A stretch of DNA of 64,000 nucleotides from Candidatus Rokuibacteriota bacterium (lineage in GTDB: Bacteria; Methylomirabilota; Methylomirabilia; Rokubacteriales; CSP1-6), in the NCBI GenBank assembly GCA_003221695.1, contig QHSX01000042.1, positions 1-64,000 of the forward strand, read 5' to 3'. Numbering within the stretch: position 1 is the stretch's first letter; each line of letters opens with the position of its first letter. Under the pieces are notes generated by a model, which was not told the origin of the DNA, made no database searches, and saw only the letters and a program-made list of their open reading frames with translations. Positions 9,210-11,995 of this stretch are shown piece after piece. The position numbers were made by a program, and so were the translations under genes.

Positions 9210-9917
9210 TCACGCGACGCGTGCCGGCCGGCAGACGCGGCACGGACGATAGCCGACGCTCCGCGCGTCAGGGACCGAGGCGAAGACCACGCGATTCGAG
9301 TCGGCGACACGCTGCTCGTGCGGGCAGCCGCGCCGGCAGACGATTCGGGTCGTCGTGGAGCCCACGAGGACCGGCGTCGCCCGCTCGAGCGTGAGCAAGA
9401 GCGTCTTCATCGCGTGGCCGAAGGCGTAGTGCCCCCAGCTCCCGTCCTCGCGGACAACCCGGTGGCAGGGGACGATCACCGGAACGGGGTTCCTGGCGAG
9501 GGCGTTACCGACGGCGCGCGCGGCGCGCGGGTGGCCGATGCGCTGCGCGAGCGTCGCGTACGAGACGACCTCGCCGAACGGGACGCGCGCGGCGTGCGCC
9601 AGCACCGCGGCCTGGAACTCGGGCAGCCCGTCGAGGTCGACGGGAACCGCGAAGAACGTCCGTCGGCCCGCGAGGTACTCGCGGAGCTCCTCACGCGCCC
9701 GCTCGGCGTGGCGGCGGGCGCGGTGCGACGGAGCGCCGACGCCCCGCCCCGGTTGGAGGCGCGTGACGCCGCGGTCGCTCGCCTCGATGCGGAATCGATC
9801 GGCGAGCGGTTCGAGCCGTCGAGGACGAGCGCCGAGCCCTCGGCGCAGGCGGGCGAGCGCGTCGCGCGGCGGAACCGCCGCCGTGAAGAACTCCCTGAGC
9901 ATCAGGTCGAGATCCAT
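9210..9917 (-). CDS. O6-methylguanine-DNA methyltransferase with C-terminal Ada-type zinc/methyl-acceptor domain
   Basis: The 235-residue protein has a reduced N-terminal region, then an Ogt/MGMT catalytic domain (residues ~92-180). The acceptor cysteine is in IVPCHRVVREDGS (C151), and FQAAVLAHAARVPFGEVVSYA is the helix-turn-helix DNA-binding part. Residues ~186-232 look like the Ada metal-binding domain: Cys194, Cys198, Cys226 and Cys229, plus VGYRPCRVCRP. The spacing (4, 28, 3) nearly equals that of E. coli Ada Cys38/42/69/72 (4, 27, 3). In Ada this domain is N-terminal and takes methyl groups from phosphotriesters; here it is at the C-terminus and there is no AraC domain. The gene begins 2 bp after the ECF sigma factor stop. 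Repair activity is likely; a sensing role is inference. Confidence 0.85.
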   Translation of the reverse strand: MDLDLMLREFFTAAVPPRDALARLRRGLGARPRRLEPLADRFRIEASDRGVTRLQPGRGVGAPSHRARRHAERAREELREYLAGRRTFFAVPVDLDGLPEFQAAVLAHAARVPFGEVVSYATLAQRIGHPRAARAVGNALARNPVPVIVPCHRVVREDGSWGHYAFGHAMKTLLLTLERATPVLVGSTTTRIVCRRGCPHEQRVADSNRVVFASVPDARSVGYRPCRVCRPARVA

Positions 9918-9919
9918 CG

Positions 9920-10381
9920 TCAGTTCTCCAGCGCCCGCCGGAGAATCGCCTTGCCCCGGGCGAGCTGGCTCTTGACCGTGTTGACCGAGATTCCGCGGAC
10001 CCGTGCGAGCTCCAGGTACGAGAGGCCGTCGACGTAGTGGAGCGCCAACAGGAGCCGCGCCTCCCGTGGCACCGCGTCCAGGGCGCGCGCCAGGTCCGCG
10101 CGCTCGACGCCGTCCGCCGCGCGGCCGCCGTGGCCGGGCGCCGGCTCGGGCGGGGGGCGACGCCGGCGTAGCTCGTCGATGCAGACGTTCGAGAGCACGC
10201 GGTAGAGCCACGTGGACACTGCCCAGCGCGGCGAGTACGAGGCGCGCGCCGCGAACGCCTTCATGAGGGCGCGCTGGACGGCGTCCTCGGCGTCTGCACG
10301 GTTCCGGAGGAGCCGATAGGCGACGGCGTAGAGCCGGCCGGCGTAGGTCTCGGCCACCCGGCTGAACGCCCGCTCGTCCAT
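9920..10381 (-). CDS. ECF-type RNA polymerase sigma factor
   Basis: This 153-residue protein has sigma region 2 (YAVAYRLLRNRADAEDAVQRALMKAF, then STWLYRVLSNVCIDELRRR) and region 4 (LLLALHYVDGLSYLELARVRGISVNTVKSQLARGKAIL). Nothing resembling region 1 or 3 is present, so it is a group 4 (ECF) factor. ATG 10381 is chosen over 10423 because family similarity begins there. No Shine-Dalgarno sequence is visible before it, and a TATACC box ends 7 bases upstream, so a leaderless transcript is possible. No classic zinc anti-sigma gene follows; the next gene, 2 bp on, is the Ada-like methyltransferase. Confidence 0.9.
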   Translation of the reverse strand: MDERAFSRVAETYAGRLYAVAYRLLRNRADAEDAVQRALMKAFAARASYSPRWAVSTWLYRVLSNVCIDELRRRRPPPEPAPGHGGRAADGVERADLARALDAVPREARLLLALHYVDGLSYLELARVRGISVNTVKSQLARGKAILRRALEN

Positions 10382-10458
10382 ACGTAAGGGTATACGCGCG
10401 CGAGAACCCGAGGGGTGGAACAATATCTGATACCATCACTCGGGCCGGGAGGCGAGCC

Positions 10459-11676
10459 ATGACGCGGAGCCATCGCAGGGACTTCCTGAGAGCAGTCGGC
10501 GGGCTTGGCACGTTCGCCGTTTCGGCGGGGCTCCTCTGGCGGGCGCCTCGGGCGTCAGCGCAGCAGGGGGACCCGATCCTCGCGGGGCGGCCGCTTGTCC
10601 GGTACCCGGAGAAGACGGATCTGATCCTGCTGACCGCGAGACCCACGCAGCTTGAGACCCCGATGTCGTACTTCGATGGGGCGATCACACCGAACGAGGC
10701 GTTCTTCGTCCGCTACCATACCTTCCCGGTGCCGACCAGCGTGGACCTCGGGACCTGGCGCTTGCGGGTCAGCGGGCTCGTGGACCGGCCGCTCGAGCTG
10801 TCCCTCGACGACCTCAAGAGCAAGTTCGCGAAGGCGGCGGTGACCGCGGTCACCCAATGCTCGGGCAATAGCCGCGGACGGTTCGCCCCGCGCGTCCTCG
10901 GCGGCGAGTGGGGCGACGGCGCCATGGGGAATGCCGAGTGGGTGGGCGCCAGACTCAGGGACATTCTCGCGACCGCCGGCGTCCGCCAGGGCGCCGTGCA
11001 AGCGACGTTCGAGGGCCTGGACAAGCCGGCCTTCCCAAGCGTTCCGCACTTCGTGAAGAGCCTCGACATTCGGCGCATCGTGGAGGACCCGGACGTCATC
11101 GTAGCCTACCAGATGAACGGGCGTGAGCTGCCCATGCTCAACGGCTTCCCGGCCCGCCTGGTGGTTCCGGGGTGGTACGCGACCTACTGGGTGAAGAACC
11201 TCTCGGAGATCTCGGTGATCGACCACGTCTTCGAGAAGTTCTGGATGAAGCCCGCGTATCGAATTCCCGACACGCCGTGCGGCTGCGTCGAGCCGGGCAC
11301 GGCGCCGAAAAGCACCGTGCCGATCACCCGCATGACGGTCCGCTCCTTCATCGGTGCACCCCCCGGCGGCGCGCGCGTCGTCGCCGGGCGGTCCGTGACG
11401 CTCAAGGGCATCGCGTTCGACGGCGGTTACGGCGTCCGCGAGGTCCAGGTGTCCGACGACGAGGGCGTCACCTGGCGGCGCGCGCAGCTCGGGCCGGACC
11501 TCGGCCGCTACTCGTTCCGCGAATGGAGTGCGGTGTGGACGCCGGCGGCGGGCGAACACACGCTGATGGTCCGGGCCCTCAACGCGATCGGCGAGTCGCA
11601 GGGGTACGAGCCCGTGTGGAACCCGGCCGGCTATCTGCGCAACATCGTCGAGCGCATCACCGTCCAGGCGGGCTAG
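10459..11676 (+). CDS. sorA: Tat-exported sulfite oxidase-family molybdenum enzyme (SorA-like)
   Basis: This 405-residue protein starts with a twin-arginine signal (HRRDFLRAVGGLGTF). The sulfite-oxidase Mo-cofactor domain carries the ligand cysteine in TQCSGNSRG (C134), with GGEWGDGAMGNAEWVGARL following. A C-terminal Mo-co dimerisation/Ig-like domain has VQVSDDEGVTWRRAQL. The family oxidises sulfite to sulfate in the periplasm. A cytochrome c gene follows 10 bp later, as in SorAB sulfite dehydrogenases. GGGAGG precedes the ATG. A distinct substrate within the family cannot be excluded. Confidence 0.88.
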   Translation: MTRSHRRDFLRAVGGLGTFAVSAGLLWRAPRASAQQGDPILAGRPLVRYPEKTDLILLTARPTQLETPMSYFDGAITPNEAFFVRYHTFPVPTSVDLGTWRLRVSGLVDRPLELSLDDLKSKFAKAAVTAVTQCSGNSRGRFAPRVLGGEWGDGAMGNAEWVGARLRDILATAGVRQGAVQATFEGLDKPAFPSVPHFVKSLDIRRIVEDPDVIVAYQMNGRELPMLNGFPARLVVPGWYATYWVKNLSEISVIDHVFEKFWMKPAYRIPDTPCGCVEPGTAPKSTVPITRMTVRSFIGAPPGGARVVAGRSVTLKGIAFDGGYGVREVQVSDDEGVTWRRAQLGPDLGRYSFREWSAVWTPAAGEHTLMVRALNAIGESQGYEPVWNPAGYLRNIVERITVQAG

Positions 11677-11686
11677 GAGGCGCGGC

Positions 11687-11995
11687 ATGCGACGCACCCT
11701 CGGCATCGCGGCGCTCGTGCTGGCGCTCCCGCTCGCCGCGGCGGCAGAGACCAAGACGATCACGCTCCCGCCCGACCACCCGTACGGGGACCTCAAGCCC
11801 GGACCCGGGGTCGAGGTCGCGCAGCGTGCGTGCCGCTCGTGCCACTCGACCGATTACATCGTGATGCAGCCGCGGGGCGACGCGAAGCAGTGGGAAGCGG
11901 TCGTCACGAAGATGATCAAGGTCTTCGGCGCCTCGATCAGCGACGAGGACGCGAAGGCGGTCGTCCGGTACCTGTCGACCGTCTACGGGAGATAG
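11687..11995 (+). CDS. sorB: Small periplasmic c-type cytochrome (SorB-like)
   Basis: This 102-residue protein has a signal peptide (residues 1-20, ending AAAA-ET) and a single heme c motif, CRSCH (C49, C52, H53). Methionines at 60 and 76 are candidates for the sixth heme ligand. It follows the Mo-enzyme gene directly with its own GGAGG site and is the likely electron acceptor of that dehydrogenase, as SorB is for SorA. The pairing is the main support for the name. Confidence 0.85.
   Translation: MRRTLGIAALVLALPLAAAAETKTITLPPDHPYGDLKPGPGVEVAQRACRSCHSTDYIVMQPRGDAKQWEAVVTKMIKVFGASISDEDAKAVVRYLSTVYGR

Follow-up and report, generated by a model that had tools for sequence, protein, structure and literature searches.

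An ECF sigma factor gene coupled to an MGMT-Ada zinc-domain gene in Rokubacteria: a candidate self-activating alkylation switch

The gene pair and the domains of its products

The window, a 64,000-nucleotide stretch of the genome of a soil bacterium of the Candidatus Rokuibacteriota, encodes an ECF sigma factor and, 2 bp downstream and likewise on the minus strand, an MGMT protein with a C-terminal Ada-type zinc domain (MGMT-Ada_Zn; Table 1). The original prediction described this locus as an ECF gene followed after 2 bp by an Ogt-type methyltransferase; the coordinates agree, and all of its checkable details proved correct. Pfam recognises Sigma70_r2 (6.6e-17) and Sigma70_r4_2 (4.2e-13) in the 153-aa sigma factor, which also matches the sigma superfamily model TIGR02937 (4.6e-25); sigma2 and sigma4 are its only domains by Pfam, as is characteristic of ECF sigma factors. 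Divergent from the sigma gene lie genes for a sulfite-oxidase-like molybdoenzyme and a small cytochrome c (10459-11995), a stretch that starts approximately 40 bp from the -35 element of the sigma promoter.

Table 1. Coordinates of the genes, protein domains and promoter elements of the ECF-MGMT locus in the window
Feature	Position	Strand	Remarks
ECF sigma factor, 153 aa	9920..10381	-	sigma2 and sigma4; ATG at 10381, stop at 9920
MGMT-Ada_Zn protein, 235 aa	9210..9917	-	ATG at 9917
N-terminal segment, residues 1-33	9819..9917	-	two predicted helices (3-12, 18-28)
MGMT domain, residues 40-180	9378..9800	-	PF01035, 8e-29
MGMT active-site PCHR, residues 150-153	9459-9470	-	intact
Ada zinc-binding (methylphosphotriester-acceptor-like) domain, Cys194/198/226/229	9225..9368	-	PF02805
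ECF-type -35 element TTCCACCC	10413..10420	-	conserved before orthologous ECF genes
ECF-type -10 element CGTATA	10391..10396	-	9 bp before the sigma ATG

The window protein combines a PF01035 match with the PCHR motif, as MGMT/Ogt proteins do, and the catalytic set of MGMT (P150, C151, H152 and R153 together with N143, Y120, R134 and E178) is invariant in 47 of 47 relatives. The fold agrees as well: an AlphaFold model computed from an alignment of 47 sequences (mean pLDDT 85.7) matches solved MGMT structures (1.9e-11). Model confidence is high in the MGMT core (pLDDT ~95) and low in the N-terminal segment (~53). In the model, the helices of residues 1-33, the MGMT domain and the zinc domain take up the protein, leaving no space where a regulatory DNA-binding domain could fit.

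The C-terminal domain was identified by three approaches. PF02805 matches residues 184-231 above its curated cut-off (1.4e-8), a profile built from 16 relatives finds known structures of N-Ada (1adn, 1.3e-4; also 1u8b, 1zgw and 1wpk), and the AlphaFold model superposes on the N-Ada/DNA complex 1zgw at 2.0 Å over 51 columns. A chance match to a four-cysteine zinc domain is ruled out by this agreement of Pfam, PDB profile and fold. The predicted cysteines 194, 198, 226 and 229 are indeed spaced almost exactly as in E. coli Ada (x3/x27/x2 versus x3/x26/x2). The same prediction held that no AraC domain accompanies the sensor, and this was borne out: Pfam finds no AraC-type DNA-binding domain in the window protein, and the genome contains only two PF02805 matches, neither of them in an AraC protein. 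This search also found no classical Ada elsewhere in the genome.

To compare individual residues, we aligned 31 distinct window-type proteins with the Ada sequence encoded in the E. coli genome. All four Ada cysteines, including the equivalent of Cys38, are kept in 31/31 proteins. For methyl transfer in Ada, T34, R39 and R67 are important residues, and their equivalents are present in 30, 30 and 31 of the 31 proteins, respectively. In E. coli Ada the A box is read by R71 together with R45 (PMC4437013). The R71 equivalent is V, A, T or L in all 31 window-type proteins and never Arg, while the R45 equivalent is variable and mostly Q; the A-box contact pair R45 plus R71 is thus missing from this set. 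Since T34, R39 and R67 are kept and R71 and R45 are not, the methyl-acceptor sensor site appears to have been retained and DNA reading in the style of EcAda lost.

Conservation of the linkage and the promoter of the operon

A contig scan identified window-type proteins at 19 Candidatus Rokubacteria loci (18 near full length) and in one Acidobacterium, with an ECF gene directly upstream wherever a contig end does not intervene. In a genome collection, which overlaps with the contig scan and whose counts are therefore kept separate rather than summed with it, the ECF gene is directly upstream in 29/30 loci and then in 15/17 further loci; with one more orthologue that has no ECF gene (G013), the total is 44 of 48 orthologues from Rokubacteria and nearby families. 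The arrangement is found in 6/6 cases in Acidobacteriota, so that the search for the MGMT-then-Ada-zinc order beside ECF genes in other genomes, which had been suggested as a check, revealed conservation in two phyla. By comparison, only 1 of 57 MGMTs without an Ada domain has a same-strand ECF gene upstream in the same contig scan. Chance adjacency is ruled out by these counts (44/48 and 6/6 versus 1/57), and the invariance of the four cysteines in the 31 orthologues, taken with the almost constant ECF neighbour, likewise indicates that the pair is not accidental.

The two genes overlap or nearly touch in relatives (mostly -16 to +5 bp), which is typical of sigma/anti-sigma gene pairs. The neighbouring amidohydrolase, helicase and sulfite-oxidase-like genes are kept in close relatives only; the sigma and MGMT genes stay linked to the edge of the sample while the remaining neighbours scramble, and the neighbours compared include no further regulator that is conserved. 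In Chloroflexota, an ECF gene lies directly upstream of an MGMT without Ada or ZAS (the zinc anti-sigma-like domain described below) at about 22 of the top 30 loci; the ECF-MGMT pairs of this phylum lack the Ada domain, and three carry ZAS.

Seven MGMT-Ada genes have no ECF neighbour (G012, G013, G042, G094 and three from family f5 of the same class), and the first N-terminal helix is absent from all seven products. No close orthologue of the sigma factor was found elsewhere in the genomes of G012 or G013. For G094 and G013, a single deletion could have removed the sigma gene and the N-terminal segment together. Since one deletion across adjoining sequence could explain part of the pattern, the co-loss supports a functional connection between segment and sigma factor but does not prove it. 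We propose that residues 1-33, predicted at low confidence as two short helices, may form a sigma-contacting element. Family f5 also shows that MGMT-Ada_Zn proteins occur with neither an ECF neighbour nor the N-terminal segment.

Upstream of the sigma gene, the relatives share the motif TTCCACCC-N16/17-CGTATA, which ends about 9 bp from the ATG; given this short distance, the transcript is likely to be leaderless. The strict motif matches 39 times in the 57 genomes, against zero matches once it is reversed as a control. Conserved ahead of the sigma gene with a control of zero, it fits the self-directed bipartite promoter characteristic of ECF systems, and this position directly before the sigma gene makes it very probable that the module is self-activating, the promoter presumably being recognised by its own sigma factor. 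The window's genome has a single strict match, at the operon itself, and relaxed matches (two mismatches) do not exceed background; the regulon may thus consist of the operon alone. Elsewhere, additional window-type motifs lie before one PF09859 oxygenase gene and, in other Rokubacteria, before genes for EamA and MFS exporters and for a luciferase-like monooxygenase. With exporters and the monooxygenase among these genes, the wider regulon would not be purely one of DNA repair, hinting that the natural signal is a xenobiotic or antibiotic alkylator.

Related pairs that carry a zinc anti-sigma-like domain

The same genome contains a second pair, on contig C101, in which the ECF gene overlaps (ATGA) the gene for a 321-aa protein composed of an N-terminal zinc anti-sigma-like domain (ZAS), an MGMT domain and a four-Cys Ada domain. 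Such ZAS-MGMT-Ada_Zn fusions follow ECF genes in Acidobacteriota, too. A set of 22 of these proteins from Rokubacteria and Acidobacteriota shows no variation (22/22) at the ZAS residues C8, H34, C38 and C41, at the MGMT cysteine or at the four cysteines of the Ada domain; Pfam assigns PF02805 to all 22 and zf-HC2 to 20. The ZAS profile matches the solved anti-sigma factors DdvA (1.3e-7), 3hug_B (5.9e-5) and RsiW (1.2e-4), and matches RsrA and ChrR weakly; we take the spacing of its zinc ligands to be the same as in RsrA. The Hx3Cx2C zinc motif, and with it ZAS, is invariant in these paralogous systems and absent from the window protein. The prediction that no zinc anti-sigma gene is present therefore stands for the locus itself but not for the genome, where such a domain exists fused to the MGMT of a paralogue.

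The two systems have diverged in other respects. In the Rokubacterial ZAS paralogues, all four Ada cysteines persist but the equivalents of T34, R39 and R67 have been lost, and the sigma factors of the window and ZAS systems are distant from one another (~20-30 bits). The paralogous operons have a motif of their own, TTTCACA-N12-CGGTGTCT, with 34 matches and none in the control; in the window's genome its strict form occurs once, at the paralogous operon. Two further kinds of gene have this motif in front of them and would belong to a ready regulon: one for a DUF2652 protein, in many Rokubacteria, and one for a small membrane protein, located immediately after the ZAS-MGMT-Ada gene (C101:20500-25500).

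A third pair in the window's genome, on contig C1 (16000-23000), consists of an ECF sigma gene and an MGMT gene, the MGMT having a short N-terminal extension. It lies in what looks like an operon for alkylation repair, whose other genes encode two oxygenases, one of PF09859 and one of AlkB type, and a DinB-type protein. Because this pair directly follows the AlkB and PF09859 genes, it ties ECF-MGMT pairs to alkylation repair.

In class I anti-sigma factors, sigma2 is bound by helix 4, which hangs on a flexible linker (PMC7406223). The N-terminal segment of the window protein occupies the place that comes after ZAS in the paralogues, and by analogy its helices could be the counterpart of this helix 4.

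Proposed mechanism and comparison with known systems

We propose, with a probability of roughly 0.6, that the gene pair is a self-contained, self-activating alkylation switch in which MGMT-Ada_Zn senses alkylation and regulates its sigma factor in the manner of an anti-sigma. MGMT-Ada_Zn would keep the ECF sigma inactive, partly by means of its N-terminal helical segment, and would itself be the sensor: Cys151 would irreversibly accept alkyl groups from O6-alkylguanine and, in the window subfamily, the zinc-bound Cys194 would probably take them from phosphotriesters. Alkylated MGMT usually loses stability; with or without such a loss, alkylation would free the sigma, which would then transcribe its own operon from TTCCACCC-N16/17-CGTATA and so yield more sigma and more repair protein. 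The build-up of unmethylated MGMT-Ada would finally shut the system off. In this scheme, we infer that the protein binds the sigma and accepts methyl groups, and also in which direction the switch works.

The strongest mechanistic evidence, which comes from sequence comparison, is the pairing of ECF genes with ZAS-MGMT-Ada_Zn genes in the same genome and in Acidobacteriota. Since these sister repair proteins are fused to a known sigma-blocking domain, an alkylation alarm has probably been assembled in these bacteria from a set of parts that differs from that of textbook Ada; since the window protein is without the ZAS motif, its own anti-sigma action is carried over from the paralogues. Cada2 provides a precedent for a transcription switch that is thrown by methylation of an MGMT-domain cysteine (PMC10957082). 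The original prediction that the methyltransferase itself senses alkylation and controls the sigma factor is thus supported in part, by the conserved gene order, the ECF promoter, the ZAS paralogues and the N-terminal co-loss, all of them features that would fit such a role. For the family as a whole, with or without ZAS, the odds seem about even that these suicide repair enzymes are also anti-sigma factors, whose two self-inactivating cysteines would bring about the release of a dedicated ECF sigma.

The sigma factor might instead be controlled otherwise, with MGMT-Ada being the repair enzyme that is switched on and its zinc domain repairing phosphotriesters. Both genes lie behind one sigma-type promoter, ECF operons often include effector genes, and the catalytic residues of MGMT and Ada are all intact, as one would expect of an effector; however, this is unlikely given that the locus has no other conserved regulator, that paralogues fuse ZAS to the same type of protein and that the start of the N-terminal segment is missing where the sigma gene is missing. 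The fused ZAS, being an inhibitor fold, also speaks against a co-activator, in which methylated MGMT-Ada would bind DNA or RNA polymerase and help the sigma with no inhibition involved. Methylated EcAda and Cada2 do act positively on promoters (PMC4437013, PMC10957082) and the E. coli Ada domain binds DNA, but the window-type proteins lack the A-box reader R71 and vary at R45, and reading of the upstream sequences, without statistics, brought no further conserved box beyond -35 and -10 to our notice. We consider co-activation improbable, the least probable of the possibilities weighed here.

The MGMT cysteine could also be the sole sensor, with the C-terminal zinc domain playing a structural part or making non-specific DNA contact. 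This would suit both the Rokubacterial ZAS paralogues, with their four cysteines and no T34, R39 or R67, and the Chloroflexota pairs that have no zinc domain at all. We consider it unlikely: in the window subfamily, the equivalents of T34, C38, R39 and R67 are 97-100% conserved. A non-sensing zinc domain is in any case compatible with the main idea, that of an anti-sigma-like repair protein.

To our knowledge, the adaptive response, a textbook case of a self-reporting repair protein, is so far known through proteins that bind promoters themselves, and the known cytoplasmic signals in ECF signalling are mainly redox signals. If our reading is correct, DNA-damage sensing would be linked to ECF signalling through a repair enzyme that keeps hold of a sigma factor. 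The window system resembles the soluble zinc anti-sigma factors with a class I ASD (RsrA, ChrR and RsiW type) in gene order and translational coupling; the sequence match to this type belongs to the ZAS domain of the paralogues and not to the window protein, which lacks Hx3Cx2C and whose proposed signal is alkylation rather than redox.

A review records that ECF122 sigmas have conserved MGMT neighbours, the mechanism being uncharacterised (PMC8999054). The likeness to the window pair, a conserved MGMT beside a sigma that has no separate anti-sigma, is one of neighbourhood only as far as that passage goes; its account of ECF122 mentions neither an Ada zinc domain nor a ZAS fusion nor a promoter. 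The suggestion that this domain order with an ECF partner was undescribed accordingly needs qualification: ECF122-MGMT neighbourhoods are on record (PMC8999054), and it is the Ada zinc domain that goes unmentioned in the passage. In the open-access literature searched, we found no description of an Ada zinc domain or a ZAS fusion in ECF-linked MGMTs. If true, our model would explain an ECF sigma class whose MGMT neighbours stand as uncharacterised, and the analysis supplies a promoter motif and named residues that are open to direct testing.

Like E. coli Ada (Ada_Zn-AraC-MGMT), the window protein unites both methyl-accepting domains and would be a self-inducing repair protein; unlike E. coli Ada, it has its zinc domain at the C-terminus rather than the N-terminus, no AraC domain and no A-box readers, and its partner is an ECF sigma factor. 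The Caulobacter Cada2 class (PMC10957082) similarly employs a methyltransferase as a methylation-dependent transcription switch and dispenses with EcAda A-box reading, but Cada2 is itself a DNA-binding activator and is without the four-Cys domain; the term 'sigma factor' is absent from the survey of adaptive-response regulators in the same paper. If our reading holds, Rokubacteria and Acidobacteriota would use these pairs to run the adaptive response through a third kind of transcription device, in addition to EcAda/AdaA and Cada2.
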